A stretch of 64,000 nucleotides of DNA from Pratylenchus scribneri (lineage: Eukaryota; Nematoda; Chromadorea; Rhabditida; Pratylenchidae). The translations under genes were made by a program, and so were the position numbers. Numbering within the stretch: position 1 is the first letter of the stretch; every line of letters starts with the position of its first letter. Location of the stretch: contig JAQSEB010000177.1 of assembly GCA_030063045.1 (NCBI GenBank), positions 186,001 through 250,000 of the forward strand, written 5' to 3'. This document shows, one piece after another, positions 1 through 60,199 of this stretch. Below the pieces are notes generated by a model. That model was not told where the DNA came from. It saw only the letters and a program-made list of their open reading frames with translations, and made no database searches.

Positions 1-105
1 GAGTCATCCGGTACAGGGTTAGGGTCTTTAGGGGAGATTATCATCACACGTATCCTCCGTAACCCTAATCACCTATAGGGAGGACCCTTCATCCAGCACA
101 TAATA
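1..105. repeat. M5 inverted-repeat element, fragment
   Basis: The segment carries the blocks 'ccctaatc' and 'gggaggacccttca'. They recur near 9.9-10.1, 40.0-40.7, 45.0-45.3 and 63.8-63.96 kb. This copy is cut by the window edge. Confidence 0.5.
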
Positions 106-325
106 CCCAAAAATTCAAGATTTAAAGAGTTTAAATCCTATTTTTGATTTTTTGTTTATAAATTTTTTGGTTTTGATTTAAACCTGGACAAATCGTTAGG
201 CCAACCATGCATCTTGATGAGCTATATCGAATAGTATATATAGGTTATAGGGTTTAAGATCAGGCATTAAAAAATTATTAAACTTTCGGCAAAAAGATTA
301 AATTCTTTCGGCAAAAAAAATCAGC
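105..325. repeat. M2 element copy directly upstream of the bioB exon
   Basis: This is the right half of a palindromic element whose end reads 'ttaaactttcggcaaaa'. Related copies lie at 10.48-10.74, 21.67-22.02 and 36.28-36.58 kb. It contains a diverged form of the core motif shared by M1, M2 and M3. Confidence 0.6.
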
Positions 326-362
326 ATCCTTTAAATATTCTCTTCATCCCAATTTGTTGAAA

Positions 363-2922
363 GGTGCCCAATCTGTGCATGCCCAAAACCATGACCCATC
401 TCGCGTACAAATTAGCACTTTGTTGAGCATCAAAACTGGGGCATGCCCCGAAAATTGTTCATATTGTCCGCAATCGAGTTTCTACAAAACTGGCATCAAA
501 AAAGAGCCATTAATGGATTTGGAGTGAGTTTTAATAATAAATGGAATACCGTAAATTCTCTATTAGTAGCCCACGCTAAAGGGGCTCTGAAATTTGAAAG
601 TCCATTCTTTTGCTCACTCTCTGACCTTTTTATATCTTTAAATTCTATAAACATGTCTTGAATGGTAGAAACATGCTCTAATTTTGTAAAAAATGTAGTG
701 AATTTAAAAACATGTTTTCGAATCTTGAAAATATGTTCTTTTAGCAGAGACTTGTAGGAAATTTTATCGAATAAATTTAATTTTCATGCATTTTCTCTTC
801 TCTGAAATTTGTGGCTTCTGATAAATAATTTACAGTAAATGATAATAATGGCTAAATTAAACATTCTTTTTAATATTTAGTGAAGTGATTGAAGCGGCAA
901 AAAGGGCCAAGGCCGGCGGGGCCACTCGTTTTTGCATGGTTTGGAGGATTGCCTAATTTTAATTGGTCATTATAAATTTTCTAGGGAGCTGCTTGGCGAG
1001 GGCCAAACAATCGGGATTTGGAGAAAGTTTGCGAAATGATTGGCCAGGTGAAGGGAATGGGCCTGGAGACGTGCGCCACACTTGGCTTGTTGAGAAATGA
1101 ACAACAGGCGGAAAAATTGAAAAATGCTGGTGAACATTTTTAGGGAAATTTGAGAATAAAATTTAACCAAAAATAGGCCTCGATTTCTACAACCATAACA
1201 TCGATTGCTCCAAGGAATTTTACAGTAAAATAATCACAACTCGCCGTTTTGAAGACAGAATTTCGACACTGGAAAAAGTCCGGGCTGCGGGGATGAAAGT
1301 TTGCAGTGGTGGAATTTTGGGAATGGGCGAAACCAACGAAGACCGGGTGAAAATGTTGGTCACTTTGGCCAATTTGGAGCCAGCACCCGAGTATGAAATT
1401 TGCCCACTTTTGTGATTAAATTAATATAAATTAGATCTGTTCCAATCAATAAATTGATGCGAATTCCGGGCACACCGTTGGCCAATGTGGGCGAATTAGA
1501 TCCATTCGATTTTGTGAGGACAATTGCGACTGCCCGAATATTGATGCCAAAATCCTATATTCGATTGTCGGCTGGCAGAGAAGAAATGAGTGATGAATTG
1601 CAGGCGAGTGAATGAATGAAGACTACTCATAAATTTTGAAAATAATAATTTTATAGGCTCTTTTTTACCCAATTTTTTAATTGTTTACCCCTTATATAAT
1701 TTTTGACTTCTAATTAATCAGAAACCGGTTTTAGAGCCAACAACCTTACTTATACCTAGGGAGCGGATTTTTATTGATATCAATATTTTTCTTGCGAACT
1801 TAAAATAGCTTTAAACCAACATAAAACACGTTTTTATCAAGGTTTTAGTTGATTTGCATGAACTTTTATGTCAATATTCATCAATATTTTGCCATTTTTT
1901 GGCCATCAATATTGATATCAATATTTTGGCATTTTTTGACAAATTTTGGCCATTTTTGTCAATATTTTGAAGATTTTAGAAAAAAGTTGAAATCTTTTGA
2001 TAAAAATCTAAAAAAATTTTTTAAAAATTTTGAAAATTTTTAGAAAAATTTTGAGAATTTCTTAAAAAATTTAAGGAAAAAGTTCATTTTGTGATTTTTT
2101 TGAAAATAATTAATGAAAAAATTGATTTTGAAAAATTTTTTAAAAATTATTGATGTGTTTAAAAATTTTCAGGAATTGGATTTTGAAATTTTTGAATAAA
2201 AACTTTGAAATATGAATAATTTTTGATTGAGGATAATGAAAGAAATTTTTATAAAATATAGCGATTTTTTAAAAAAATTTTCATCAATATTTCATCAATA
2301 TTTTGCCTATTTTTGCAAATTATATCAATATTTTGACAATTTTATGTCAATATTTTATGCCTATATTTCGGGATTCTATATCAATATAAATCCGCTCCCT
2401 ACCTACTTATACCAATTTGTAAATCTCATCGAGACGCATCGAATGGTGTATAAAATGTCAGGTTGTGGCTCAAAATTTAAAGTGTTTAAAAATAAAGACT
2501 AGAAATATGGTTTAGACGGTTTAACTCGTTCAGTTTCGATTTAAACTAAGAAATTTATATGTCATCAAAACATGCTTATCGATGAGATCTATAAAATGGT
2601 ATATGATGCATAGGGTCTAACTGGTTTCTGATTTATTTTTTGATTTATTTGAAGTAAAAACTTTTTAGAGTAAAAAATAAATAATGATTTAAAAATATTT
2701 TATTTTTATCATAATTTTTAGGCCCTTTGCTTTTTGGCCGGTGCAAATTCCCTCTTTTACGGGGAAAAATTGTTGACGGCGGCAAACCCAAAACCGGAAA
2801 ACGATATTCAGCTATTCAAAAGGCTGGGAATGAAAGGGGAAGAACAAATTGATGGAGAAGAAAATCATCAAGAAATTGAGGACGATGTTCCTTTGGGGAA
2901 AACAATGGCAGAGACAATTTGA
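363..2922 (+). CDS. bioB: Biotin synthase, bacterial type with introns (5' end missing)
   Basis: Radical-SAM enzyme that inserts sulfur into dethiobiotin to form biotin. Exons: about 363-523, 881-938, 985-1129, 1177-1390, 1435-1603 and 2722-2922; they join in one frame to give about 314 residues. The 4Fe-4S motif CPENCSYC is intact. So are the expected 2Fe-2S ligands: Cys in TRFCMGAAW, Cys in ETCATLG, Cys in KVCSGG and Arg in LSAGRE. The YNHNID substrate loop is also present. Homologues are about 345 residues, so roughly 30 N-terminal residues are missing; they must lie on an exon upstream of the M2 element or outside the window. The last intron (1604-2721) starts with GC rather than GT and holds nested repeats. 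Animals normally lack this gene, but transferred copies are known in cyst nematodes. The introns argue against bacterial contamination. Confidence 0.93.
1702..2660. repeat. M1 element in the bioB intron, split by a nested insertion
   Basis: The M1 start ('tttttgacttctaat', 'cagaaaccggtttt') is separated from the rest of the element (resuming near 2403 with 'cttataccaatttgta') by a second element at about 1758-2401. The end reads 'aactggtttctgattt'. Confidence 0.75.
1758..2401. mobile_element. Nested M8 inverted-repeat element rich in 'tcaatatt'
   Basis: The left end TAGGGAGCGGATTT is matched at the right by an inverted AATCCGCTCCCTA. The stretch 'tacttatacc' sits on both sides, consistent with a target duplication of about 9-10 bp inside an older M1 copy. 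A related half-copy lies at 23163-23550. Confidence 0.7.
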
Positions 2923-3366: not shown

Positions 3367-5905
3367 ATGTCCAAATCCTTGTCTAGTCTTTGCAATCATG
3401 CTGGTCTGGTCTTTGCAATCATGCTTGTCAAGTCTTTGCAATCATGCTGGTCTAGTCTTTGCAATCATGCTTGTCAAGTCTTTGCAATCATGCTGGTCTA
3501 GTCTTTGCAATCATGCTTGTCTTGTCTTAGCAATCATGCTTGTCTTGTCTTAGCAATCATGCTTGTCTTGTCTTAGCAATCATGCTTGTCTTGTCTTAGC
3601 AATCATGCTTGTCTAGTCTTAGCAATCATCCTGGTCTAGTCGACGCATTCATCCTGGTCTAGTCGACGCATTCATCCTGGTCTAGTCGACGCATTCATCC
3701 TGGTCTAGTCGACGCATTCATGCTTTTCTAATCGATGCATTCATCCTTGTCTAATCGATGCATTCATCCTTGTCTAGTCGATGCATTCATCCTTGTCTAG
3801 TCGATGCATTCATCCTTGTCTAATCGATGCATTCATCCCTGTCTAGTCGATGCATTCATCCTTGTCTAGTCGATGCATTCATCCCTGTCTAGTCGACGCA
3901 TTCATCCCTGTCTAGTCGATGCATTCATCCCTGTCTAGTCGATGCATTCATCCCTGTCTAGTCGATGCATTCATCCTTGTCTAGTCGATGCATTCATCCT
4001 TGTCTAATCGATGCATTCATCCTGGTCTAATCGATGCATTCATCCTTGTCTAATCGATGCATTCATCCTGGTCTAATCGATGCATTCATCCTTGTCTAAT
4101 CGATGCATTCATCCTTGTCTAGTCGATGCATTCATCCTTGTCTAATCGATGCATTCATCCTGGTCTAATCGATGCATTCATCCTTGTCTAATCGATGCAT
4201 TCATCCTGGTCTAGTCGATGCATTCATCCTGGTCTAGTCTTTGCAATCATGCTGGTCTTGTCTTTGCAATCATGCTGGTCTTGTCTTTGCAATCATCCTT
4301 GTCTAGTCGATGCATTCATCCTGGTCTAGTCTTTGCAATCATCCTTGTCTAGTCGATGCATTCATCCTGGTCTAGTCGATGCATTCATCCTGGTCTAGTT
4401 TTTGCAATCATGCTTGTCTAGTCTTTGCAATCATGCTGGTCTTGTCTTTGCAATCATGCTGGTCTTGTCTTTGCAATCATGCTGGTCTAGTCTTTGCAAT
4501 CATGCTGGTCTAGTCTTTGCAATCATGCTGGTCTTGTCTTTGCAATCATGCTGGTCTTGTCTTTGCAATCATGCTGGTCTTGTCTTTGCAATCATGCTGG
4601 TCTTGTCTTTGCAATCATGCTGGTCTTGTCTTTGCAATCATGCTGGTCTTGTCTTTGCAATCATCCTTGTCTAGTCGATGCAATCATGCTGGTCTAGTCT
4701 TTGCAATCATGCTGGTCTTGTCTTTGCAATCATGCTGGTCTTGTCTTTGCAATCATGCTGGTCTAGTCTTTGCAATCATGCTGGTCTAGTCTTTGCAATC
4801 ATCCTGGTCTAGTCTTTGCAATCATGCTTGTCTAGTCGATGCATTCATCCTGGTCTAGTCGATGCATTCATCCTGGTCTAGTCTTTGCAATCATGCTTGT
4901 CTAGTCGATGCATTCATCCTGGTCTAGTCGATGCATTCATCCTGGTCTAGTCTTTGCAATCATCCTTGTCTAGTCGATGCATTCATCCTGGTCTAGTCGA
5001 TGCATTCATCCTGGTCTAGTCTTTGCAATCATGCTTGTCTAGTCTTTGCAATCATGCTGGTCTTGTCTTTGCAATCATCCTTGTCTAGTCGATGCATTCA
5101 TCCTGGTCTAGTCGATGCATTCATCCTGGTCTAGTCGATGCATTCATCCTGGTCTAGTCGATGCATTCATCCTGGTCTAGTCTTTGCAATCATCCTTGTC
5201 TAGTCGATGCATTCATCCTGGTCTAGTCGATGCATTCATCCTGGTCTAGTCTTTGCAATCATGCTGGTCTTGTCTTTGCAATCATGCTGGTCTTGTCTTT
5301 GCAATCATGCTGGTCTTGTCTTTGCAATCATGCTGGTCTAGTCTTTGCAATCATGCTGGTCTAGTCTTTGCAATCATGCTTGTCTAGTCTTTGCAATCAT
5401 GCTTGTCTAGTCTTTGCAATCATGCTTGTCTAGTCGATGCATTCATCCTGGTCTAGTCGATGCATTCATCCTGGTCTAGTCTTTGCAATCATGCTGGTCT
5501 TGTCTTTGCAATCATGCTGGTCTAGTCTTTGCAATCATGCTGGTCTAGTCTTTGCAATCATGCTTGTCTAGTCTTTGCAATCATGCTTGTCTAGTCTTTG
5601 CAATCATGCTGGTCTTGTCTTTGCAATCATGCTGGTCTAGTCTTTGCAATCATGCTGGTCTAGTCTTTGCAATCATGCTTGTCTAGTCTTTGCAATCATG
5701 CTTGTCTAGTCTTTGCAATCATCCTTGTCTAGTCGATGCATTCATCCAGGTCTAGTCGATGCATTCATCCTTGTCTAGTCGATGCATTCATCCTGGTCTA
5801 ATCGACGCATTCATCCTGGTCTAGTCGATGCATTCATCCTGGTCTAATCGACGCATTCATGCTTTTCTAATCGATGCATTCATGCTTGTCTTTTCTTAAC
5901 AATCA
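3367..5905. repeat. 23-bp satellite with two alternating monomer types
   Basis: About 110 tandem 23-bp units. Monomer A contains TCTTTGCAATCATGCTGG and monomer B contains TCGATGCATTCATCCTGG, joined by TCTAG or TCTTG. They form runs: A-like at the left, a B block at about 3640-4230, then mixed A/B blocks to the right. Both flanks carry 'ctttcttagaaatccaaa' (near 3340 and 5908), suggesting growth from a single unit. A 23-bp period shifts frame at each unit, so the three overlapping open frames inside it are not genes. Confidence 0.97.
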
Positions 5906-16911: not shown

Positions 16912-19900
16912 ATGTATAACAATATTGGTCTGGCCACTGCACGTGGTTCAGGCACAAATGCCTATGTTCAATCCAATGTTGCACATTTGAACTTTTCACG
17001 GGTATAAAGAACAAATTAATTCTAATTCCTATAACATTTTCAGAACAAAATTGTTTACAATGCGGAGGAGGATATTGCAAAAGCGGAAGCTGAAGTGAAC
17101 AAGACACCGAATTTGGAATTGTTGGACCATGAATACAAACGTTTAATCGAGATAAAATGCGTTGAATTTGAGGATTTGATGGAGGGCAAGGTTTGTAAAA
17201 TAACAAATAATATTAAAGTGAGAAATTATACGAATAATAAGGAAGTTTAAGAGCACACTTTGTAAAGGTGCAGGGAGGTCCTTTACATTATTAGTTGGTT
17301 TTGCAGCCTTACTCTTAAAAGGTTATGATTTAAGATTAGATTAGTGTTAGGCTTATAAAAAACCAAGAATGCTAGAGTTTATCAGTTTATAATTAAATTT
17401 TACCCAAAAGATTTTCAAAAATGTCTTATAAACAGTTCCTTTACTTTTGCTAATTGCGAACTTAAACTTATAGCAAGTTCCGAATAATTTAATATTTAAA
17501 CGTTCACTTTCTAGTTATATTTGTATATTAACCTATTATTTTATCAACAGGATATTCCTGGGATAAATTTAGAGTTTATAATTTTACTTTATCATTTTCT
17601 TCTAAAATATGGGAAATGGGATCAACCCAAAAATTCTGGCAAAAAAAATTGAAAAATTAAGTCAGGATGTCATAGCTTAGTCTAGAGCCATAACTAAGAT
17701 TTGGATCACCGGTTATAGAGAGTATAGTTAGAGTTTTAAGAAATTTTTTCTAAGCAGTTTGAAATAAATTCTAAAATAACCCAAAAATTTGTGCAGGGAT
17801 TTAGCGAGGAAGAAATCGATGCCAAAGTGAATGAATATCGCAAATTGCTGTTCAATGAATTCGAAAATGGTCGACTGAACATGGATGAACAGCTGGATTT
17901 ACGGAACACCCATTCACGGGCAAAAGTGGCCAAAGACTCGCGGGAGAATATGCGATGGGCGCTGGGAATTGATGCGGCATTTGTGGACGGATCCTCGCTG
18001 GAAAAGTTGAAAAAAGCCGGTGAAACTGTGATTAAAGAGGCGGCGGCCAAATTGGAAGGAAAAGATAAAGCGGAAATGGACAAAGAGATGGAAAAATCGC
18101 TGATGGAAAAGTTGTTGGAGAAGATCAAAAAGAAGAAGGAGAAAAAGAAGGAAATTCAGCGGATGAAGAAGGCAATGCGAAAAGGCAAAAAGGCCGAAAG
18201 TAGCAGCAGTAGCAGTGAAACCACCGGTAAAAATTAGGAAAAATTGTTAGAAAAATTATTGCAAATTAGTTGGAAATTTATAAATTCCGGGATTTATTAA
18301 TTGCTGGCCTTTGGCCTAGTAAAATTTTGGAATCTCGGAATTTAGGCTGCTGGCCTGGCAGCCTAGAGAATCGAGAATTGTCTCACTCGACTCGGGAGTC
18401 GGGACTCGTAATGATCGATTTAGTCTTATGAAATTTCAATTTTAAACCGATTTGAGCTCGTTTTGAAAATTTGAACCGTTGTTTAAACCCAAAATGGTTT
18501 ACTTGTATTTAAACTAAAACTAAATCCTAACTAGTTTAGTTGTTGTTTAAACCCAAACCAGTTTAGGTTCACTAACTTTTGCCTAAGTCATAATTCTGGG
18601 TTGAAAATGAAATTTCATAGACAAAATCGACCTTGCCGAATGGAATGAGCCAATTCTCAAGCCTTTAGGTTGCCTAGAAAGTAGAAACCGAATTTTCAAA
18701 AAAATTTGTTAGCCTAGCATTTAAAAATTCCGGAATTTTACTCATTTCCAATATTTACTGCAAAAAAATGAATTTAAATTATCCATTTTAACAGTGGCGT
18801 AACCAGAAAAAAATTTCGGGGGTTGCAAAAATTTTTGAGAGGGGGCAATTTTTGCGAAATGGCCCCGCAGGGAAAATTTTTTAATAAAAAAAGGCCGCGC
18901 AGCGTAAAATTTGAGCTAAAAATTGCCGCGCAGCGAAAAATTTGAGCTAAAAATGGCCGCGCAGCGAAAAATTTGAGCTAAAAATGGCCGCGCAGCGAAA
19001 AATTTTTTCTCCCAAAAGGGTCCCCCCTTTACTTTTTTTTTTCCCAATTTTTCATTTCGGGGGTTGCTTGCAACCCCCTAAATCCTTTTCGGGGGTTGCA
19101 CGTGCAGCCAATTCAACCCCCTGGTTACGCCACTGCATTTTAAGATTCATCCACCGATTCTTCATCATCCGGCTCCGATGATTCTTCCTCATCCGATTCA
19201 TCATCCAGTTCATCCTCTGAAGAAGAGCGAAAAAGGAAGAAGAAGAAATTGGCGACAAAAAGGAAGAGAAATGAGTCAAACGGGAAAACCAGTGATGGGA
19301 AAAAATTGAAGAAGCCAAAGAAAGAAGAAAAAGATTATGAGGAAGAATACAAAAGGTTTGCATTGATATTATAGCCCAAATTTGTTTTTCAAATACCCAA
19401 CCAAAAATAGTAATTTAATTTGTGACCAATGACCATATCAGCTTCAAACATCATTGAGCATTAATTTATTTGCTCATTCGATTCAGAATAGTAGATTTAG
19501 ATAGGAAAATGTTAATTCTGACCCAGCTCAGATTTAATTCATTCCAAAAATGTAAAACCATTCTAAAGACCGAAAGAAACTACAGGTAGTCCTAGGGTTC
19601 ATGATTTTGATTTGAAATTAAAATCTTATAAACGATAAACCAAACCAACTCTTAACGAATCAATTGAGCAATAGATTTATGCTCTATGGTAAATTAGAAT
19701 TAGAATAAGCCGAAAATGGGAATGGCTGAGACTGCAACATATAAGTAAATTGGGAATTGGAATTGGACATAGCAAAATATGTTACTAATGGTTTTTGTCC
19801 CCTACAAGGGAATGATGATGAAGAAGATAACTTCAGCTTCATCCTCGTCTTTATCATTATCTTCATCCTTTCCCTCATAAGGGACAAACTCCATTACTGC

Positions 19901-26046: not shown

Positions 26047-27010
26047 GAGTCTTGTTGACATGCATTCATAATTGTCTTGTTGACATACATTTATTATTGT
26101 CTTGTTGACATGCATTCATAATTGTCTTGTTGACATGCATTTATTATTGTCTTGTTGACATGCATTTATTATTGTCTTGTTGACATGCATTTATTATTGT
26201 CTTGTTGACATGCATTTATTATTGTCTTGTTGACATGCATTTATTATTGTCTTGTTGACATACATTTATTATTGTCTTGTTGACATGCATTCATAATTGT
26301 CTTGTTGACATGCATTTATTATTGTCTTGTTGACATACATTTATTATTGTCTTGTTGACATGCATTTATTATTGTCTTGTTGACATGCATTCATAATTGT
26401 CTTGTTGACATGCATTTATTATTGTCTTGTTGACATACATTTATTATTGTCTTGTTGACATGCATTTATTATTGTCTTGTTGACATACATTTATTATTGT
26501 CTTGTTGACATGCATTCATAATTGTCTTGTTGACATGCATTTATTATTGTCTTGTTGACATACATTTATTATTGTCTTGTTGACATACATTTATTATTGT
26601 CTTGTTGACATGCATTTATTATTGTCTTGTTGACATACATTTATTATTGTCTTGTTGACATGCATTCATAATTGTCTTGTTGACATGCATTTATTATTGT
26701 CTTGTTGACATGCATTTATTATTGTCTTGTTGACATGCATTTATTATTGTCTTGTTGACATGCATTTATTATTGTCTTGTTGACATGCATTTATTATTGT
26801 CTTGTTGACATGCATTTATTATTGTCTTGTTGACATGCATTTATTATTGTCTTGTTGACATGCATTTATTATTGTCTTGTTGACATGCATTTATTATTGT
26901 CTTGTTGACATGCATTCATAATTGTCTTGTTGACATGCATTTATTATTGTCTTGTTGACATGCATTTATTATTGTCTTGTTGACATACATTTATTATTGT
27001 CTTGTTGCAA
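26047..27010. repeat. 25-bp satellite
   Basis: About 38 units of CTTGTTGACATGCATTTATT plus ATTGT. Only three variants occur: 'tgcatttattattgt', 'tgcattcataattgt' and 'tacatttattattgt'. Units are nearly identical, which points to recent expansion. It lies 240 bp beyond the TGT stop, without coding capacity. Confidence 0.97.
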
Positions 27011-47761: not shown

Positions 47762-50700
47762 CTATTTCCTTTTGGCCAACATTGAATCAATCCATTGTTG
47801 AGGAATCGATTTTTGGGCCACAAATTGTGAAACTTCTTTGCTGGTAATCTGTGAAAGAATGGAAATTATTTTGATTATATTTTATCAATGGAATTTAATT
47901 TTTAGCCGAAATAATTAGATAATGTCTTTTCTTATTGTGGTTTTAGAATGATTTAACTCATTTTCTAAAAAATCGATTTTTATGCGAAAATATATAGTCT
48001 AATGAGCCGCTTGAAATCAGCTTTAGACAAATCCTTAACAACCTTTAGATCCCAAAACCCTTATAATAAGATTTGAAAGAGTTCATCGAAATCGAGATGC
48101 GTTGATTGATTTATTATAGCCCTTGCCTTAAATTTTTATTGAAAGCTATTTCAGAAAAAAAAAACATTTTTAAAAGTTGGGGCCCCCGGAAAATTGCATT
48201 TTTTAGGGTTGGGGGTCCCCCAGAAAATTGCATTTTTTAGGGTTGGGGGGTCCCCCAGAAAATGCATTTTTAGGGTTGGGGGGTCCCCCAGAAAATGCAT
48301 TTTTAGGGGTAACATGCATTTTGAAATAACATTACATGCATTTTAAAATAACGTTACATGCATGCATTTTTTAGCTTCGGGGGGTCCCCCAGAAAATGCA
48401 TTTTTAGGGTTGGGGGGTCCCCCAGAAAATGCATTTTTAGGGTTGGGGGGTCCCCCAGAAAATGCATTTTTTAGGGGTAACATGCATTTTGAAATAACAT
48501 TACATGCATTTTAAAATAACGTTACATGCATGCATTTTTTAGCTTCGGGGGGTCCCCCAGAAAATGCATTTTTAGGGTTGGGGGTCCCCCAGAAAATGCA
48601 TTTTTAGGGTTGGGGGGTCCCCCAGAAAATGCATTTTTAGGTTCGGGGGGTCCCCCAGAAAATGCATTTTTTAGGTTCGGGGGGTCCCCCAGAAAATGCA
48701 TTTTTTAGTTTCGGGGGGTCCCCCAGAAAATGCATTTTTTAGGTTCGGGGGGTCCCCCAGAAAATGCATTTTTTAGCTTCGGGGGGTCCCCCAGAAAATG
48801 CATTTTTTAGGTTCGGGGGGTCCCCCAGAAAATGCATTTTTTAGCTTCGGGGGGTCCCCCAGAAAATGCATTTTTTAGGTTCGGGGGTCCCCCAGAAAAT
48901 GCATTTTTTAGGTTCGGGGGGTCCCCCAGAAAATGCATTTTTTAGGTTCGGGGGGTCCCCCAGAAAAATTGCAATTTATTGAAAATAAAAATATTTTTCT
49001 TTGAAATTAATTACAATTTAATATATACCATTGCCACTCCGAGTTCATCAAATTCCCGTTTTGTGCGTTCAATGCTGCCAAAATCCAATCCTTTGCTACA
49101 ATCCGTGATGACGGCAGTAAGGAAGCCGGCTTTGACCGCATCCCGGGCCGTCCATGCCACACAAATATCCAAAGCCAGACCACAAATAAAAACCAATTTT
49201 ACGCCATTTTTGTGCAATTCCTCCTCCAATTCAGTTCTAAAAATATTAATAAAAATTCATTTAAAATGAAAATCAAATTTACTTATTTTCGCCTTGATTA
49301 TCCACAAATGCGGAATAGGATTCAGAAAATTTGGATGTTCCTTTCCGAATGTATTTGGCCCCTTGTACTTGCTTTAATTTTGGATAGATCTGGAAAATTT
49401 TTGCCATATAATACTTTCATAAGTGAGATTAATTGGATATTTACTGTTTATTAGAGAATCCGAAAATTGGAATGCATTTAAATTTAGTAACTTTTGGAAC
49501 CATTTTATAGCCTTGATTTGGATGAATCGATGTAAGAATTAGTGAATTTGATTGGAAATTATTGCAAAATGGTATTTCCAAAAAAAGTAAAAAAAATGGG
49601 CCAAAATCGGCAGTTTAGATTTTTGGGCGTTTCTTGACCATAACTTACTGGCCAATTATATTTTGAACAATTAATTTTGATATTGAAATGGTCTGCATAA
49701 AAAGATTTACTAATAATATTAAAGTTTTATTAATATGATGGAAAAATGTTGAAATATTTGCCCAAAATGCGAAATTTGTCTGCCCCAACATATATTGAAT
49801 GTCGAAATTTTTGCAGTAATTTACCTCGGCTCCCCATGTTCCCTGTACACAATGTGTCGGATATAAAGCCTTAAAAAATGAATTTTCTAATTTTTCCATC
49901 TTATTTTTAATTAACCTGTTCAATTGGAGGAATCTCAAATTTCAATGTTTCTCCAATTTGGATTTTTTCCTTTTCACAGTCAATTTTTGTCAATTTACGA
50001 TCAGGGTCATGGCGATTTTCGATGAACGAAATGTGATTTGGTGGATGCCTGAATATATTTTTTAAAATGTTTTTTCGACATTGATGCAAAAATATGGCCT
50101 CGATATTCCAATATTGAAATTAAATTGAATGAACCGTACCCTCTCAAAAAATCTAATCGGGTTTTGGGCCATAGCTCTGGGAAATAATATTCAAAAACTT
50201 TAAAGTGCTATCTACAAAGGAGCTTTTCAAATTTCATTAAATCCAAATTTAAAAAATTAGTATATATATTTAAGTATAATAACTCGAATTTTTTTTTGAA
50301 GGAAAAGAACTTTAATTTTCTACAAGGTTTATTTTTTTAATAAAATTTAATAAAGGCCAAACGCCAAATGATAGAGGAAACTTATTAGAACTTTCGGAGG
50401 TATATATTTTTTCATATTGGTTATTGCTTTTTTGGGCTATGATCAAATACAAAAACCAATCCTGGTACCAAATTGACTCTTTTCCTTAATTGGAAACTCT
50501 TTCTGTCCTCTTTTTTCTTCAAATTTTCAAAAATAGAGGATGAATCTACGAAATAACCTAAATATCCAACGAAAAAACATTTGAAAATGTTCGAACCTAG
50601 TCCCTGGTTAATTAGATGGTAAATTTTAATTTCATTATATTATTGATAATTTTATAACAATTAAAAAAGTAACCAATCCATTGTGTAGAAAATGGTGTTA

Positions 50701-51110: not shown

Positions 51111-52645
51111 ATCGAAAACGGGAGATTGGGAAGTTGTGTTATCCTAGACTTTTATTTGCCCAAATTAATTCAAGTTAAATTTGCCTAAGGCAAATTTAAA
51201 TATGTGAATTGATTGGCAATTTGGTTGACTCAATAAATGGCAATTCACAATCCCTTAGGTTCTTTTTCGGTTGCAATGGCCCAATTATTCAAATAAATAT
51301 AGCAATACTGGATGGGGATAAAAGGGTTGATTGGATATTACTGTGGGCGATGATTCGCCTATTAATTGCTTGGGGAATGGGTTGAAAGATTTAGGATGGA
51401 AGGTCAACAATTAAACAAATTATTTGGCGATGATTCGCTAATAATTGTTTATAGGGAATTGATATCAAGGCTGGGGAATTATCGAATATTCAGGGGAACG
51501 GATTTGATAATCCGACAAATTGGTAAATGAAATATAAATGGGAAATGGAAAAGCGAAGATTCGCTTTAAGGATTGATTGGGGAATAAGGATATGAACGTC
51601 GATATAAACAATGGCAGAATATGCAGGCGAAGATTCGCCTTTACGCGATCTTAGTTATGAAATTGAATGTGAATTTGGGGGAAAAGATATTTGTTGTGAC
51701 CGCGCAAATTCGATGGAAATTTGCTATTAAAACCGAGCAAATTAAATGGTAATTTGCAATTGAGACCGCGCAAATTTGATGTTAAATTTGCTGTGAATGA
51801 ATTTGGGAAATCCGCGCAAATTTGATGGTAATTTGCTGTTGTTGACTTAATTAAACAATTCAGAGTAGTTCGTGAATTGTCCCGCGAAGATTAGATAATC
51901 TTCTTAACCGCGCAATTTGATGTTAAATTGCTAGGATATAATTCTATTTCCTTAACCCAAAAAGTCAGAGTAGTTCGTAACTAATTGAGGCTAATTCTAT
52001 AGGCTTAAATCCTTATTCTAAAGCCTAGAGCTGAGTCGTTTGGCTAAAGAATGTCCTAAAGCTTAGAGCTGAGTCGTTGAGCTATAGGGTCCCTATTAGT
52101 AGAGCTGAGTCTTTGCTAAAGGGGTAGGAAATAAATTAACAATTTATTTTCCAAAACGCTGAAGCGAATATTGTTGATTGAAATTGGAATGAATAATGGA
52201 ATTGGATGGGAATCGTTTATTGTGGATGTGGGCGTTGCCTTTCTCTTCCTCTTCCATCTTCTCATCCTTCTTTTTTGTTGTAACATTAGGCCAAGTCGCC
52301 ATGGGGCACAGACACATTGAAGGGGGCAAATATTTGGGGCGGATGAGGGCAAAAAGGCATTTGAATGGGAAGAGCATTGTTGGGGGCAAGGAGGTGAAAG
52401 GATCGGCCGATGATGGGAAGAGATGTTGTTGGTCGGGGGCGCATTGGGGCATATGCGAAGAGGCCAATATTGATGGGAAAATGACGCTTTAATCTTGAAA
52501 GGGAATGGATGGATTAAAGGTGGAAGATTCCACCGGCAATAATAGAAATGAAAATGGAAATTGAATGGGCAAAGAATTGCCAATCGATGGGAAGAATTGG
52601 ATGGGCCAAATTAAATTATGAATAAAATCGCAAAGATTTGCGACA
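51111..52645 (-). repeat. 3' LTR of the Bel/Pao element
   Basis: Minus-strand ends TGTCGCAAA and TTTTCGAT. It contains a chain of short hairpins (for example GGCGATGATTCGCC at 51346-51359) and three 'gagctgagtc' motifs near 52030-52100. Frames inside it of up to 155 residues, duplicated in the other LTR, are not considered genes. Confidence 0.95.
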
Positions 52646-52657
52646 CTCCCACCAAAG
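52646..52657 (-). other. Polypurine tract of the Bel/Pao element
   Basis: Minus-strand CTTTGGTGGGAG directly before the 3' LTR. A second copy sits 75 bp further inside at about 52721-52732, within a 25-bp direct repeat that includes the LTR edge. Confidence 0.75.
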
Positions 52658-52689
52658 AAAAATTCATGACGGCCGAGACAAAATAAAAT

Positions 52690-53667
52690 CTAGAAATGAA
52701 AATCGCAACGATTTGCGACACTCCCACCAAAGAAATTCATAACTTCATTTATCTCGCTGTCATTCAAGTGCTTCATTGACGGTTGTCGTATCGCCTTTGT
52801 AGAATATTCATCCTTTGATGATTCTGTTGTTCTTGACTGTTGCTTTGTAGAATATTCATCCTTTGATGATTCTGTTGTTCTTGACTGTTGCTTATGAACA
52901 TTTGACCATTGTTTCGTTGCTTGTTTGATTGGCTCCAAATCAGAGTTGATACTGGGTATATCGATAGACATCGACCCTCCCGACTTCAAAAAAATGAGAA
53001 TTGTCGGCATTGCTTTGTAGTGCCATTGACTTGAAAGTAATGATCGTAATTGCTTCAACGATTCTGATATTGTTATGATTAACATTTCATTGATTTGAAT
53101 ATTCGTATTCGGAGATCCTTCAGAGCATACTTTATTTTGAAATTCAATTTTTTCGATGTTTTCTTTTAACAAGGATTCTCCAGAAAACTGATTGACTTGA
53201 TGCATTTTGCCATCCATCATGATATTGGTGTGCTGGCGCAATTCGTAATCACCTTCTTTACATTTTGGGTGGAAAACAAAAATTATTGATTCAAGAAATG
53301 CCAAGATTGGCTCAATTTCTGCAAGTGTGACATTCGCTGGGATGAACTTAAAATATTTTCCGTTGGATGGAATAAAACCAAAGGATTTTGGTTTTGAACA
53401 TTTCCAATATTCCAGAATCGTATGTGAGATCCACCTTACTTCCAGATATTCGATATTGACTAATTTCCTAATAAAAATTGTATGATTCAGATGTGTGAAA
53501 TCATTGCTCAAGAATGAGTCCGAAATATAATCCCAAATCAATTTCGAATAAGACTGGAAAGCCTGCTTGGTCAAAGAATAGAAATTTATTTTGCAATTGT
53601 GATTCAAGCTGAGAAGTTCGTACTCTACCGTCAAGATTGACAGAAAATTCTCTTTCAAAGATTGCAA
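52690..53667 (-). CDS. Bel/Pao downstream frame, env-like or accessory
   Basis: A 325-residue frame overlaps the 3' end of the main polyprotein by 167 bp in another frame. It shows Cys-poor mixed hydrophobic segments and a 16-residue tandem duplication (QQSRTTESSKDEYST twice). No recognised domain. Its position after the polymerase region suggests a remnant env-like or accessory product; whether it is expressed by frameshift, splicing or its own start is not evident. Confidence 0.5.
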   Translation of the reverse strand: MQSLKENFLSILTVEYELLSLNHNCKINFYSLTKQAFQSYSKLIWDYISDSFLSNDFTHLNHTIFIRKLVNIEYLEVRWISHTILEYWKCSKPKSFGFIPSNGKYFKFIPANVTLAEIEPILAFLESIIFVFHPKCKEGDYELRQHTNIMMDGKMHQVNQFSGESLLKENIEKIEFQNKVCSEGSPNTNIQINEMLIITISESLKQLRSLLSSQWHYKAMPTILIFLKSGGSMSIDIPSINSDLEPIKQATKQWSNVHKQQSRTTESSKDEYSTKQQSRTTESSKDEYSTKAIRQPSMKHLNDSEINEVMNFFGGSVANRCDFHF

Positions 53668-56600
53668 ATCCTTGTTGGATTATGACCAAATCCTTGGAAC
53701 ATGATGCTACAAATTCGAGTTTGTCTTTGAAGGTCAATGATAATTCTGAATGAGAACTAAGCCATTCCTTCCTATACAATATTCCGTTCATAGATATGAA
53801 CTTTTTGAATGTGTAATTTTCATCAGAATACCAAATACTAGTTCCTTGCGAATTTGAGACTGGCCAAATAAGCAAAGATTTGCTTTTGAGTTGGCAATTT
53901 CCATTGGAAGATTGACAATGGTTCAAATCGTCAACGGATAACACCACAATTTCGTTGCCAGGTTTGCTGATCAATATGATGTTCCTCATTTGTTCAAATT
54001 CAAATATGTGTCTGGCTGTTATTGTTCCTTCGGGATTTCCAAATAATATGTTTTGTTCATCACAGTTCTTTGTTTGATTCGTTTCTTCCCTATCTTCTTT
54101 TGTTTTAGGAACGATTTGCTCCTTCGATGTATCGAATGGATCATTTAATAGATTCATCCAACAAATGACTGAGCTTTCTATAACTGTGCTTTCGGAATTT
54201 TGGAATTGATATTCCTTCCGTTCCGGTCTATATAAAATCAATTGTAATTCTTCCGATCTATCCACAAAGATTTGCGATAAGTTTGAATATGCGTTAATTT
54301 CTCGAGTAAATTGAATGATATGATTCGTTTGTTCCTTTTCTTTAATCTTCTGATCACAAAATTCTACATCATGATTGAATGTTTGACTTTTCGCATTGCC
54401 TTTTAACTCCAAATTTTTCAAGTGATTGACAGTGCGTTCAATTTCCTGTTTTTCTTTGATAAGAAACTTTTCAGCTGCGCTCCTTTTATCAAATGATAAT
54501 TCAGGCACTTCTTCAATCAATTTCTTGATCTGTTCTTTGTGGCTTAATGGAAGACCTGTAGTCCAATCCAACTCAAGATTGAGCGCCTTCAATGTTCCCT
54601 TTTTTGGGTTCTTAAAATGTTCTACTGCTCTTAGTACATAAGCCATAGTATTTCTGATTCTTCTGAATTGTGAAAATCTTTCCCATTGGATAATGGGTTC
54701 AGGCTGTTCTGTTTTTATGGCTAAGCTCATTTCCAAACAAGTATTCTTAGGCTCTTCAAGCTCAAATTTTTCGGGATCGAATTCTTTGATGCTTGTGGGC
54801 CATTCTTCTTTCTTCTTTGAAAGCCAAGCTGGGCCTTCAAGCCAAATTTTATCCCAACATAGATCTGTTGGATACTTTCCTCTATTGGCATAATCCGCGG
54901 GGTTATCTTTTCCTGGAACGTGCGAAATTCGGAATTGCTTTTTGCGGATTGTCTTGATTCGATTGTTTACGAATCTTTCCTTCTCTCTCTGAGAATTCAG
55001 AAAGTCATTAACATCCGCACTGTCTGACCATAACCGAATTTCATCAATCTTGATTTCCCTTTCCAATTCCTTCTTGACAAAACTGATGTTGTCCGTGCAG
55101 ATTTTCATTGCATGCAGTTCAAGTTTGGGAATGGTTCGTTTGCTTTTTGGAATCGATGCAGGCACCATTAAACTTTTTACGAATGCTATATAGCTGTGGA
55201 TGATTCCATCTTCTTCGATGATTCGAAGATAAAATACTAATCCAATTTTGGAAGCATAAGCAAATTCATGCAACTCATATTTCAAACTCTGCTTTCTGGA
55301 ATAATTTCCGTAGCGACGAGTGAAATCAATTCGTTGCTCTTTCCAAGTTTTCATAATTCCATGCCATTCTTTGGAATGTTCTTCACTCACAACCGTATCC
55401 CAGTCCAACTTCTTTTCTGCTTCCACCTTTTGACGCAACAATTTGCATCTCAGTACCACCGGACTGATTATACCCAATGGGTTATATGGGCGAGCAGTTT
55501 GGGACAAGATTGTCCTTCTTGTGACTGGTTTATTCTTGGGAAATTCTGGTAGCTGGATAGCTAATGAGTCCATGACTGTGTTCCAAATTAATCCCAATAA
55601 TTTGGTTTCTTTCTTATCTCTTCGATTGCATTCCGGTATTTGTTTGATTTCTTGCCAAGCATTGCTTGTGAATTCTCTCACATTCATTGTTGCTTCCTTG
55701 CAAACCCCTTTCAAGAATTCATACGTTTCATAAACTTTGACTGGTTCGTCCAGTCCAATAAGCATATTGTCCAAATATGTGTCACTTTCCAGTTGGCGAA
55801 TGATTTCGCTATCATATTTTTCGTAATGTTTATTTAGGACGATCCCTAAATGAGCTGGGCTACATATGACTCCAAAAGTGACTCGATTAAATCGATATTC
55901 TGCGACTGGACTTGATGAGTTCATGGGATCAGTGTACCAGAGGAATCTAAGCACGTCTCTGTCCTTTTCATTAATTGCGATTTGTAAGAAAGCCTTCTCT
56001 ACATCACATGTCATCAAGAATGGCTTTAATCTGGCTCGCAGGAGGATTCCCGCTAAATCATTATAAGTCTTTGGTCCCTTTTTCAAGCATTGATTTAAAC
56101 TTGGGGTTCCTTTTTTCGGTTTTGCGTTCGCAGCAAAGACAATACTTAGCTTTGTAAATTCTTTGTCCTTCCTTTCCACAAAATGATGGGGTAAATAATG
56201 GAGTTTGTTCTCGAAATTTCCGTTACGATTAACGGGCGGAACTCTCTCAATGATTCCCTTCTGAAGTTGGTCCTGAATGATTTCATCATACTGCTTCAAT
56301 AGGGCAGGCTTTTCAGCTAATTTCTTGTGAATCGACTTCAATCTATACAATGAATTGAAGTAATTGTCGGGATGATTTTCAGCTTCTTCATTCCAACACA
56401 ATTTCACTTCATATCGTTCTCCATTGAAGACAAGATTATCTTCAAACTCTTTCCTTTCCAACTCATCATCATCTGCCTTCGCATCTCCAAGTCCTATAGT
56501 CTCTAGTTTCTGATGTCGATCGACGATTCGATCAAGTTCAGAATCTTTCAACTCTTTCATTCCGGGAAAGTTCCCTTCGAATTCAATTTCGTTTTCCTCT

Positions 56601-58264
56601 GTGGAAGCTGATGCGAAAGTTGAGTTCATATTTTGATCACATTTCTCAACCTTTCCTTCACCGGAAATGATTTTCCCTAATTTCGAATCCGAAATCCAAA
56701 ATCCATTAGCTAATTGGATCTCCGGCTTGATTCCCATGCGATTATAGAAATCGCCTCCAATCAACAATGCTGGTTCACTCATAACCGGAGGAATCCGGAT
56801 TTTATTTGCCAACAATTTATTCAAGTCACGCTTGCTGAATGGTACATGTGGCAATTTTGGCATAACCTTTTCCATTCTGTGAGCTTTCATGATCATGTCT
56901 ATCTTTTTTCCTTTTAATCCGAATTCGACTACAGTAGTTTGAAAGTTGCCCAATTTTACACCACCTAGACCTGTGGCTTCAAACTTGACTTCTCCGATCT
57001 CTCTTAATTTCAACTCTTTGATAAGAGTCTGGGAGATGTAGCTTTTTTCGCTCCCATCATCGAGAAAAACGTGGACTTTTCTCTTCAACTTCGGATTCTC
57101 AGTATTGTAGATTGTCACTTTTGCGCATTTCAATAATGATCGAGTGGACTTTGGATCTTTCAGACAACTTCGATAAGTTAGAACTGAAATCGACTCTTCA
57201 ATTTCCGATGATTCGGAATTCTGATCGAAAGCGGAAGCTGTGATTTTCGTTTCTTCTTCAACCGTTGATACGGTTTGAGTTTCTTTCGATCGATCCTTTT
57301 CTTGTTTTCGACAGATGGCTGGATTATGTTTTGGACGGCTGCAAAGAAAGCATCGTTTCCGATAATCAAAACAATCCTTCGAAACATGTCCTTCTTTCAA
57401 ACAACAATAGCATAAGTGGAGTTCTTCCATCCGCTTTTTTCGATCTTCGACACCTTTGTATTGGTCACAGTCTATTGCAAAGTGAGATCCTTTGCAGAAT
57501 TGACAAGTGTTTCTAAACTGACTTCGGCTCTGACTTGAAGATCGGCTTTTGGTTTGACTGCCTTCAGGATGTTCTTTCTTTTCATTCGTGCAGGATGAAC
57601 TTTGCCTTCTAGATGAATTAGAATTTTGACTTGCGTTATTTCCGTTTGACTGGGATGATCGAGAACTTGACGGATGATTCCGTGACCTCGAATCATTTGG
57701 GCTTAGACCGGGGTCCTCACTCGATTCTGTTGATCGAGAATTGGGCCGAGGAATCGGTGATCTTGAAACTGTTGGACTTCGGCTTATGCTATTTCTATTC
57801 TGGCTTGATTGAGATGATCGAGAGTTGGACCGATGATTCGGTGTTCTCGATCTATTTTTTCTACAGTCGGTCTTGAAAATTGATCGACCTATTAATAAGA
57901 GATAAATATTCTCTTTCAAAACTTGATATTGATTTAAGCGATGATTCGCTTTTGAAAGGAATTTTCTTAGCTCGTTTCCATCTATAGCTAGTCGGTAGGC
58001 TAGTTGAAAGTCAGCCTTTTCTTCCAGGGGTAAACTGTCCAACATTCTTGCATAACCTAATTTGCCTGCTTCGATTTCTTCAATTTGGACTTCGATTTCA
58101 TCAATTATTTCTTTGATAGTTTCATATTTGACGGAGAAAAAGTGCTTTTGTTCCGGAGTGGTTATTTGATCAGGAACCTCAGGAACGTCGTGTTCGAAAA
58201 CAATATCTATTGCATCTCTCGCAGTGAGGATACGGTCAACAAAATCGTCGGGTATAAGTGGCAT
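53501..58264 (-). CDS. Bel/Pao Gag-Pol polyprotein without integrase
   Basis: One open frame of 1587 residues. Order: short Gag (to about 140) with helical Glu-rich segments; a Ser/Arg-rich linker; three zinc knuckles at about 250-316 (CQFCKGSHFAIDC, CYCCLKEGHVSKDC, CFLCSRPKHNPAIC); aspartic protease with LDDGS near 404; reverse transcriptase at about 680-900 with CDVEKAFLQI and active-site YLDN near 830; RNase H at about 1000-1130 with KLELHAM, WSDS and NPAD. The first RNase H acidic position reads FAYAS, with Tyr where related elements have Asp. After about 1270, where integrase should begin, the sequence passes into an unrelated Cys-containing region that may be env-derived. No integrase motifs were found. 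Confidence 0.92.
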   Translation of the reverse strand: MPLIPDDFVDRILTARDAIDIVFEHDVPEVPDQITTPEQKHFFSVKYETIKEIIDEIEVQIEEIEAGKLGYARMLDSLPLEEKADFQLAYRLAIDGNELRKFLSKANHRLNQYQVLKENIYLLLIGRSIFKTDCRKNRSRTPNHRSNSRSSQSSQNRNSISRSPTVSRSPIPRPNSRSTESSEDPGLSPNDSRSRNHPSSSRSSQSNGNNASQNSNSSRRQSSSCTNEKKEHPEGSQTKSRSSSQSRSQFRNTCQFCKGSHFAIDCDQYKGVEDRKKRMEELHLCYCCLKEGHVSKDCFDYRKRCFLCSRPKHNPAICRKQEKDRSKETQTVSTVEEETKITASAFDQNSESSEIEESISVLTYRSCLKDPKSTRSLLKCAKVTIYNTENPKLKRKVHVFLDDGSEKSYISQTLIKELKLREIGEVKFEATGLGGVKLGNFQTTVVEFGLKGKKIDMIMKAHRMEKVMPKLPHVPFSKRDLNKLLANKIRIPPVMSEPALLIGGDFYNRMGIKPEIQLANGFWISDSKLGKIISGEGKVEKCDQNMNSTFASASTEENEIEFEGNFPGMKELKDSELDRIVDRHQKLETIGLGDAKADDDELERKEFEDNLVFNGERYEVKLCWNEEAENHPDNYFNSLYRLKSIHKKLAEKPALLKQYDEIIQDQLQKGIIERVPPVNRNGNFENKLHYLPHHFVERKDKEFTKLSIVFAANAKPKKGTPSLNQCLKKGPKTYNDLAGILLRARLKPFLMTCDVEKAFLQIAINEKDRDVLRFLWYTDPMNSSSPVAEYRFNRVTFGVICSPAHLGIVLNKHYEKYDSEIIRQLESDTYLDNMLIGLDEPVKVYETYEFLKGVCKEATMNVREFTSNAWQEIKQIPECNRRDKKETKLLGLIWNTVMDSLAIQLPEFPKNKPVTRRTILSQTARPYNPLGIISPVVLRCKLLRQKVEAEKKLDWDTVVSEEHSKEWHGIMKTWKEQRIDFTRRYGNYSRKQSLKYELHEFAYASKIGLVFYLRIIEEDGIIHSYIAFVKSLMVPASIPKSKRTIPKLELHAMKICTDNISFVKKELEREIKIDEIRLWSDSADVNDFLNSQREKERFVNNRIKTIRKKQFRISHVPGKDNPADYANRGKYPTDLCWDKIWLEGPAWLSKKKEEWPTSIKEFDPEKFELEEPKNTCLEMSLAIKTEQPEPIIQWERFSQFRRIRNTMAYVLRAVEHFKNPKKGTLKALNLELDWTTGLPLSHKEQIKKLIEEVPELSFDKRSAAEKFLIKEKQEIERTVNHLKNLELKGNAKSQTFNHDVEFCDQKIKEKEQTNHIIQFTREINAYSNLSQIFVDRSEELQLILYRPERKEYQFQNSESTVIESSVICWMNLLNDPFDTSKEQIVPKTKEDREETNQTKNCDEQNILFGNPEGTITARHIFEFEQMRNIILISKPGNEIVVLSVDDLNHCQSSNGNCQLKSKSLLIWPVSNSQGTSIWYSDENYTFKKFISMNGILYRKEWLSSHSELSLTFKDKLEFVASCSKDLVIIQQGFAIFEREFSVNLDGRVRTSQLESQLQNKFLFFDQAGFPVLFEIDLGLYFGLILEQ

Positions 58265-58649
58265 ATTTCAATTAATTTAAATTTAGAAAATGATTTTTCA
58301 AATTTAAACTTTCAAGCAAGAAAAATTTTAAATTCAATCAGGAAAATTTCTTGGAAAATGATTTTTCCAAATTTAATATCAAATTGAAATTTTTTATTCA
58401 AATTTTTAGCGCAGGCTGTGGTCGATGGATTTTATATAGAATTTATTCAAAGGATTTCAAATTGTTGAGAAGATTCTCAATTTGAAATTTGTCAATTTTT
58501 ATTTATTCCTTTGTCCTTTGGATTAGAAACTGGATTTGATTTGACCAAATTGATTAAAGAATTTCTAAAGATTTAAAAATTCTTTAAATGTATTGATTGT
58601 TTTCAACAAGCAACCCTCCCCACTAAAAAAAGCTGGGTTAGCAACCTAT

Positions 58650-58662
58650 CCAAGGGTCGCCA
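58650..58662 (-). other. Primer-binding site of the Bel/Pao element
   Basis: Minus-strand TGGCGACCCTTGG starts 2 bases after the 5' LTR. TGGCGACC is the usual Bel/Pao primer site and suggests a tRNA ending in GGTCGCCA (tRNA-Arg type; inferred). Confidence 0.7.
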
Positions 58663-58664
58663 CT

Positions 58665-60199
58665 ATCGAAAACGGGAGATTGGGAAGTTGTGTTATCCTA
58701 GACTTTTATTTGCCCAAATTAATTCAAGTTAAATTTGCCTAAGGCAAATTTAAATATGTGAATTGATTGGCAATTTGGTTGACTCAATAAATGGCAATTC
58801 ACAATCCCTTAGGTTCTTTTTCGGTTGCAATGGCCCAATTATTCAAATAAATATAGCAATACTGGATGGGGATAAAAGGGTTGATTGGATATTACTGTGG
58901 GCGATGATTCGCCTATTAATTGCTTGGGGAATGGGTTGAAAGATTTAGGATGGAAGGTCAACAATTAAACAAATTATTTGGCGATGATTCGCTAATAATT
59001 GTTTATAGGGAATTGATATCAAGGCTGGGGAATTATCGAATATTCAGGGGAACGGATTTGATAATCCGACAAATTGGTAAATGAAATATAAATGGGAAAT
59101 GGAAAAGCGAAGATTCGCTTTAAGGATTGATTGGGGAATAAGGATATGAACGTCGATATAAACAATGGCAGAATATGCAGGCGAAGATTCGCCTTTACGC
59201 GATCTTAGTTATGAAATTGAATGTGAATTTGGGGGAAAAGATATTTGTTGTGACCGCGCAAATTCGATGGAAATTTGCTATTAAAACCGAGCAAATTAAA
59301 TGGTAATTTGCAATTGAGACCGCGCAAATTTGATGTTAAATTTGCTGTGAATGAATTTGGGAAATCCGCGCAAATTTGATGGTAATTTGCTGTTGTTGAC
59401 TTAATTAAACAATTCAGAGTAGTTCGTGAATTGTCCCGCGAAGATTAGATAATCTTCTTAACCGCGCAATTTGATGTTAAATTGCTAGGATATAATTCTA
59501 TTTCCTTAACCCAAAAAGTCAGAGTAGTTCGTAACTAATTGAGGCTAATTCTATAGGCTTAAATCCTTATTCTAAAGCCTAGAGCTGAGTCGTTTGGCTA
59601 AAGAATGTCCTAAAGCTTAGAGCTGAGTCGTTGAGCTATAGGGTCCCTATTAGTAGAGCTGAGTCTTTGCTAAAGGGGTAGGAAATAAATTAACAATTTA
59701 TTTTCCAAAACGCTGAAGCGAATATTGTTGATTGAAATTGGAATGAATAATGGAATTGGATGGGAATCGTTTATTGTGGATGTGGGCGTTGCCTTTCTCT
59801 TCCTCTTCCATCTTCTCATCCTTCTTTTTTGTTGTAACATTAGGCCAAGTCGCCATCGGGCACAGACACATTGAAGGGGGCAAATATTTGGGGCGGATGA
59901 GGGCAAAAAGGCATTTGAATGGGAAGAGCATTGTTGGGGGCAAGGAGGTGAAAGGATCGGCCGATGATGGGAAGAGATGTTGTTGGTCGGGGGCGCATTG
60001 GGGCATATGCGAAGAGGCCAATATTGATGGGAAAATGACGCTTTAATCTTGAAAGGGAATGGATGGATTAAAGGTGGAAGATTCCACCGGCAATAATAGA
60101 AATGAAAATGGAAATTGAATGGGCAAAGAATTGCCAATCGATGGGAAGAATTGGATGGGCCAAATTAAATTATGAATAAAATCGCAAAGATTTGCGACA
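58665..60199 (-). repeat. 5' LTR of the Bel/Pao element
   Basis: 1535 bp matching the 3' LTR with one substitution noticed. It should contain the promoter; no clear TATA or initiator was assigned. Confidence 0.95.

Follow-up and report, generated by a model that had tools for sequence, protein, structure and literature searches.

The DNA analyzed here (the window, 64,000 nucleotides in all) spans positions 186001-250000 of contig JAQSEB010000177.1 (C177) of Pratylenchus scribneri, whose assembly holds 227,248,964 bases in 276 contigs. This species is a root-lesion nematode and not a cyst nematode. At its left end, the window carries a bacterial-type gene for biotin synthase, bioB, which looks, judging by its sequence, like a working nuclear gene, and relatives of further biotin genes lie on another contig, C105. 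The bioB gene is built by seven exons encoding a predicted product of 350 residues, without stop or frameshift. Splicing was deduced from genomic DNA: six introns are predicted, in phases 1, 2, 0, 1, 2, and 0, five of them with GT-AG borders and intron 6 with GC-AG. The gene is laid out as follows, in window coordinates unless a contig is named.

C177:185643-185748 (window -357 to -252, counting 0), + strand: bioB exon 1 with the start codon, upstream of the window
1..363, + strand: 3' end of the 615-base bioB intron 1, with the GT donor after exon 1 and the AG acceptor at 362-363
364..523, + strand: bioB exon 2, with the CxxxCxxC motif of the radical-SAM (S-adenosylmethionine) cluster
524..880, + strand: bioB intron 2, phase 2, GT-AG, 357 bases (49 and 51 bases in the two further copies, see below)
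881..938, + strand: bioB exon 3
939..984, + strand: bioB intron 3, phase 0, GT-AG, 46 bases
985..1129, + strand: bioB exon 4
1130..1176, + strand: bioB intron 4, phase 1, GT-AG
1177..1390, + strand: bioB exon 5, with the YNHN substrate loop and one 2Fe-2S cluster ligand
1391..1434, + strand: bioB intron 5, phase 2, GT-AG, 44 bases (480 and 466 in the other copies)
1435..1603, + strand: bioB exon 6, where the BATS domain begins
1604..2721, + strand: bioB intron 6, phase 0, GC-AG, 1118 bases
2722..2922, + strand: bioB exon 7, with the end of the BATS domain and the stop codon

The predicted protein matches biotin synthase far beyond chance. It scores 407.1 bits against NCBIfam bioB (TIGR00433; cut-off 225) and 437.8 bits against Escherichia coli BioB (1r30), with which it shares 60.2% identity over 309 columns. 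The cluster-ligand and substrate-loop residues are kept at all 12 positions checked against the E. coli enzyme, and those aligned to E. coli C53, C57, C60, C97, C128, C188, and R260 are all conserved; we take these to be the three cysteines of the 4Fe-4S cluster and the three cysteines and the arginine of the 2Fe-2S cluster. Similarly, of 141 columns that hardly vary among 116 database relatives, 140 are kept; these relatives were chosen for their similarity to the query, and this favors such an outcome. The first-pass annotation, made from the letters of the window, had proposed a bacterial-type bioB coding sequence with every expected Fe-S ligand and the substrate loop intact, and with at least five spliceosomal introns. 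These proposals hold: five introns lie wholly inside the window and a sixth crosses its left edge.

A whole-assembly search for the BATS domain of bioB gave six matches, two exons each on three contigs (C177, C21, and C8). The three bioB copies have a common seven-exon order, open frames, and equal splice-site kinds, and their intron lengths vary strongly (46/690/868 bases for intron 3; 1118/199/442 for intron 6). The GC-AG border of intron 6 is kept in all three; GC-AG introns are reported to be abundant in Globodera (PMC11817004). Synonymous divergence (dS) is 0.164 for C177-C21, 0.169 for C177-C8, and 0.082 for C21-C8, and the ratio of nonsynonymous to synonymous divergence (dN/dS) is 0.037, 0.066, and 0.151, respectively, far below 1: bioB is under purifying selection. 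Further along the window lies a second landmark.

17740..18237, + strand: gene piece with a cwf21 match below the Pfam cut-off, with copies on C8 and C21

The overlapping stretch 17741-18394 likewise has copies on C8 and C21. On all three contigs, the distance between the piece and the stop codon of bioB is about 14-15 kb, so the three bioB segments are collinear. The window piece, in the region 17400-18400, has three more relatives on C33, C4, and C7, at 85-87% identity. Three collinear segments with a dS of 0.08-0.17, in a species called diploid by its genome paper and by a karyotype catalogue, make a polyploid or hybrid history worth testing.

Intron 6 of the window copy holds repeat elements, and a tandem array follows downstream of the gene.

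1757..2401: element of 645 bases in bioB intron 6, whose 24-base terminal inverted repeats are 96% complementary
3375..5846: tandem repeats of a 23-base unit (107.5 copies), downstream of bioB

The intron 6 element interrupts a second dispersed repeat (1693-1748 and 2406-2637), giving nested elements at 1693-2637; the interrupted repeat has matches at ten places in the window, and on C105, C21, and C8 as well. A tandem array related to that at 3375..5846 also lies downstream of the C21 and C8 bioB copies.

The top four database matches to BioB are all nematode proteins (Meloidogyne graminicola, 79%; Heterodera glycines, 75%; Meloidogyne hapla, 79%; H. glycines, 74%). For the BioB tree, 53 of 87 available rows were used; of 312 bacterial loci found, the best 80 had been taken. 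All seven nematode rows group in a single clade (support 100/99.6), in which Pratylenchus BioB groups beside that of Meloidogyne (99/95). This clade is nested in a 40-row clade (100/99) of seven nematode and 33 bacterial rows, the latter including Rickettsiales, Holospora, Midichloria, Legionellaceae, Bartonella, Francisellaceae, four Helicobacter rows, and proteobacteria. The tree fits one transfer before the Pratylenchus, Meloidogyne, and Heterodera lineages split, followed by what would be vertical descent. Phylogeny had been set beforehand as a test of the proposal that bioB was acquired horizontally and naturalized with introns. The gene falls inside a bacterial/nematode clade, next to Meloidogyne and Heterodera, and the six predicted introns are common to three copies, so the proposal is supported, and the tree did not refute it. 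The opposite reading, that the window bioB came from contaminating bacteria or is a pseudogene in decay, can draw on its bacterial-type sequence only. Six predicted introns in three copies, nested transposons in intron 6, a nematode sister group, and low dN/dS speak against it; the introns and the selection refute it, and we give it practically no credence.

Among plant-parasitic nematodes, bioB is already known from cyst nematodes (PMC4699853, PMC6909392) and M. graminicola (PMC7593179), and P. scribneri bioB alone adds another case to these acquisitions. The novelty, which had been placed in the intron gains and repeat context of this locus, lies mainly elsewhere: in the occurrence in a lesion nematode, and in the partners of bioB, namely bioF, bioD, and the remnant of bioA. 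These partners emerged from a suggested genome search for bioA, bioD, and bioF, which was run over the whole assembly exon by exon and is less sensitive than a gene-wise search. Both bioD matches lie on C105. Of 19 bioF matches, four are exons on C105; the others, on C31, C8, C59, C23, C92, C58, C1, and C117, are probably related animal enzymes such as glycine C-acetyltransferase and serine palmitoyltransferase. The 27 bioA matches include one C-terminal piece on C105, and none exceeds the cut-off, which single exons can hardly reach, so there is room for a bioA core elsewhere. The search thus turned up bioF and bioD, both with predicted introns, but bioA only as two end pieces.

C105:636972-639086, + strand: bioF, five exons, four predicted introns, 455 residues
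C105:635218-636359, - strand: bioD, three exons, two predicted introns, 219 residues
C105:634907-635102: first piece of bioA, recognized by eye, without NCBIfam match
C105:634298-634657: last, C-terminal piece of bioA, 78.7 bits to NCBIfam bioA

The bioF and bioD genes stand head to head, with start codons ~610 bases apart. The two bioA pieces are only 249 bases apart and their phases, as modeled, do not match, so the catalytic core is absent. A fused bioD-bioA gene of the plant or fungal style was ruled out, bioD having its own stop and the first bioA piece its own start. BioF and the first bioA piece begin with basic, acid-poor stretches, which BioD does not; our impression is that these N-terminal stretches resemble mitochondrial presequences. 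Among the other bioA-like matches, that on C39 was rejected: it belongs to the class-III aminotransferases, and the solved structure most like it is that of ethanolamine-phosphate phospho-lyase (6tor). That on C50 was judged by eye to be the same gene as the C39 piece. Further matches below the cut-off lie on C54, C2, C93, C117, C92, C1, C58, C32, and C4. Among all 27, of which those on C39 and C50 were followed up, no bioA core was recognized.

Do the partner genes belong to the worm? If C105 were a contaminant or a chimera, they would be foreign to it. In favor of this, the worms came from carrot cultures, the C105 region has a lower GC (guanine plus cytosine) content than the window (0.295 vs. 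0.337), and a ferroportin flank on C105 (exons matching Pfam FPN1 with 53.9 and 91.8 bits, ~9 kb away from the bioA piece) has no second copy beyond short repeat-like matches, unlike the bioB segment. In fact, no second copy of the C105 cluster and its flanks was found in the assembly, apart from repeats and one gene family; as the flanks also lack one, presence or absence of the cluster between homeologs is not decidable. Against it, C105 has repeat families in common with the bioB contigs at equal, within-genome divergence: the C105 repeat is on average 84.2% identical to the copies in the window, C21, and C8, and those copies are 84.3% identical among themselves. A second repeat shows 93-97% identity between C105 and at least nine other contigs, and bioF intron 3 carries a dispersed repeat with 40 scored relatives of 103 candidates across the assembly. 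The introns are of spliceosomal type, and the ferroportin gene itself also argues for the worm. Contamination is unlikely, and we consider a foreign or chimeric C105 very improbable.

Both partner proteins can be assigned to families and, with differing firmness, to a bacterial type. The spliced BioD model scores 129.7 bits against TIGR00347 (cut-off 83.3). For BioF, the best NCBIfam family is bioF (TIGR00858) with 324.6 bits, ahead of 5-aminolevulinate synthase (227.8) and glycine C-acetyltransferase (203.2). The nearest solved structures are 5-aminolevulinate synthases and an enzyme named 8-amino-7-oxononanoate synthase/2-amino-3-ketobutyrate CoA (coenzyme A) ligase, so the assignment of BioF to its family relies on the NCBIfam ranking and the tree. 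The worm BioD likewise matches solved BioD structures by sequence. A BioF tree was built from 41 of 43 loci with a bioF match, two having been dropped by a length or match filter. In it, the worm BioF joins 23 bacterial BioFs linked to a bioB of the type found in the biotin operon of intracellular microbes (BOOM), with 100/100 support, vs. 18 others (24 rows vs. 18); the name is that used in PMC9084900. The BioD tree, from 26 of 120 database BioDs and six of seven loci, groups the worm protein with 28 BOOM-type BioDs vs. four others (94/91), a placement that is only suggestive of BOOM type. Near-invariant columns, judged over 120 relatives each, are kept at 82 of 85 positions in BioF and 41 of 42 in BioD, which is hard to reconcile with long decay. 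Earlier, larger BioD and BioF trees from database matches, without outgroup, gave no clear placement, and BioF there met another long branch.

Of 38 bacterial loci in the BOOM-type clade, 24 have bioF within 1.5 kb of bioB (24 of the 29 outside Helicobacter and none of the nine in Helicobacter); bioD lies within these flanks in three other loci. Given this bacterial neighborhood, joint acquisition of several biotin genes appears plausible.

Animals are held to need dietary biotin. By the established functions of these families, BioF joins a pimeloyl thioester and alanine to give 7-keto-8-aminopelargonic acid (KAPA); BioD closes the ureido ring of 7,8-diaminopelargonic acid (DAPA) with ATP and CO2 to give dethiobiotin; and BioB inserts sulfur into dethiobiotin by radical SAM chemistry, yielding biotin. 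In the reading that we favor, and think probable as a whole, P. scribneri carries homeologous, intact bioB genes plus, on C105, an intron-bearing bioF of BOOM type, a bioD probably of that type, and a bioA without core. The worm BioF, BioD, and BioB would each perform the reaction of its family, an activity assumed from family membership, and the worm could thereby use biotin precursors that come from itself or from its plant. Less certainly, all four genes may have entered together as one BOOM operon, of which cyst and root-knot nematodes would later have retained only bioB.

Several observations weigh against this reading. At the level of the gene models, bioF intron 3 has an uncertain acceptor, where the predicted protein contains an 11-residue insertion compared with the six relatives shown, and BioF stays below the TIGR00858 cut-off of 426.45; all five bacterial BioF relatives tested also fall below it (392-412), so this cut-off seems not to cover their branch. 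The trees come with warnings: the BioF tree has long branches and odd composition in 15 rows, mostly outgroup, the BioD tree has two very long outgroup rows, and both worm proteins sit on long branches with no resolved sister, so a donor common to them and bioB is not shown. The base composition of C105 given above and the location of bioB on other contigs than bioF-bioD belong here too. The pathway itself has gaps. On C105, full-length bioA (TIGR00508) with its catalytic core is replaced by the two end pieces; in the assembly, the exon-wise search found no match to bioH or bioW and only two pieces of bioC below the cut-off. The full BOOM set of bioA, B, C, D, F, and H is thus not present in the assembly and, with bioA broken in the only copy recognized and neither bioH nor bioW found, the assembled pathway is incomplete. 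No enzyme for the step from KAPA to DAPA was recognized in the assembly, and the pimeloyl source is likewise unaccounted for. The assembly had its haplotigs purged and lacks 32.8% of BUSCO (Benchmarking Universal Single-Copy Orthologs) genes, so an uninterrupted bioA may lie elsewhere. The biotin/lipoate ligase domain gave two matches, as expected for an animal.

The separation of the contigs also bears on when the genes arrived. If bioB is an old acquisition shared by nematodes, bioF, bioD, and bioA could have come later and separately, from another BOOM-bearing symbiont. The three latter genes are neighbors on C105, with bioB placed on C177, C21, and C8, and no nematode BioD or BioF appears among the organism-named database matches (22 BioD and 16 BioF of the 120 listed for each), whereas four nematodes head the BioB list. 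Conversely, bioF is a common neighbor of bioB in bacterial operons, and the long branches of BioF and BioD outside the Wolbachia and Cardinium groups (at weak resolution), together with their gained introns, suit an old arrival. We lean against a separate, later arrival, while granting it an appreciable chance.

The broken bioA raises a further question, whether bioF and bioD are themselves relics being lost in the same way, with only bioB at work, as reported for the soybean cyst nematode. The reduction of bioA to two end pieces and the single-copy state of the C105 cluster agree with this, as does the partial pathway with the last enzyme described for the cyst nematode by Kwon 2019 (PMC6909392). 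The near-invariant columns kept on long branches, and frames open across the predicted exons, speak for retention instead, and we judge ongoing loss of bioF and bioD improbable. At the other extreme, the ancestor of lesion, root-knot, and cyst nematodes might have taken a whole operon from an intracellular bacterium; lesion nematodes would then run bioF, bioD, and bioB with a working bioA on a purged haplotype, and their sedentary kin would have been trimmed to bioB. We hold this fuller version to be unlikely; if true, lesion nematodes would be animals capable of making biotin out of a pimeloyl precursor.

Returning to the favored reading, in which bioF and bioD are intact partners of bioB, known systems provide a useful comparison. 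The closest are other plant-parasitic nematodes. H. glycines HgBioB (Bekal 2015, PMC4699853; Kwon 2019, PMC6909392) belongs to the same clade as P. scribneri BioB, at 74-75% identity. At both positions that differ between the published active and inactive forms of HgBioB, all three P. scribneri copies match, by eye, the form that complements E. coli. Where PMC6909392 describes for H. glycines a partial pathway with the last enzyme, P. scribneri has three homeologous bioB copies plus bioF and bioD. The bioB genes of M. graminicola (PMC7593179, seen in part) and M. hapla (UniRef) are the sister of P. scribneri bioB; the former species is reported, in that part, with a single acquired vitamin gene, bioB, and no bioF or bioD is named. 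PMC11817004 reports, for two species of Heterodera, a different gene assigned to biotin synthesis, fabG, which is neither bioF nor bioD. A nuclear bioF or bioD of a nematode was not found in the literature searched, which was mostly open-access and was addressed by few queries naming bioF or dethiobiotin. The worm seems to keep more of the biotin pathway than cyst nematodes are reported to have, though bioA leaves a gap.

With the bacterial BOOM genes, P. scribneri has in common the clades of BioB and BioF, and probably that of BioD, as well as the adjacency of bioF, bioD, and a bioA remnant. Unlike them, its genes are nuclear, intron-bearing, and split over contigs, with bioA broken, bioH not found, and bioC unconvincing in the exon-wise search. 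Among animals, the whitefly Bemisia tabaci likewise has nuclear late-step genes from bacteria (bioA, bioB, and bioD; PMC12842512, seen in part). It belongs to another phylum, and the set named in that part does not include bioF, which P. scribneri has; moreover, whitefly BioD groups with three Wolbachia BioDs (98/98), and P. scribneri BioD does not. BioD-like proteins were also noticed in the scale insects Parthenolecanium corni and Kerria lacca (P0135 and P0215), on contigs larger than 20 Mb; they group together (98/90), apart from whitefly BioD, and may be separate insect acquisitions.

Cyst nematodes have been described with the last enzyme only, which left the reason for a lone step open. 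A relative retaining bioF and bioD suggests that more genes were once acquired and that the lone bioB is what is left of them. With this nematode, as with the whitefly, several bacterial biotin genes have become nuclear in an animal.

Two observations concern the surroundings of the C105 cluster. A multi-copy gene family at L094:7000-8000 (C105) has at least 20 relatives of 72-90% identity on many contigs; its identification by eye as a seven-transmembrane receptor was dropped, the piece tested having no Pfam match. A Fic-like piece near the cluster scores just below the Pfam cut-off (23.0 vs. 24).

The rest of the window holds further repeats.

26049-27007: tandem array of a 25-base unit, 38.4 copies
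48179-48967: tandem array of a 34-base unit, 23.5 copies
52116-60164, - strand: BEL/Pao-type long terminal repeat (LTR) retroelement, with a long frame matching Peptidase_A17 and reverse transcriptase

Two near-identical copies of a 164-residue frame flank the BEL/Pao element and may be its LTRs.

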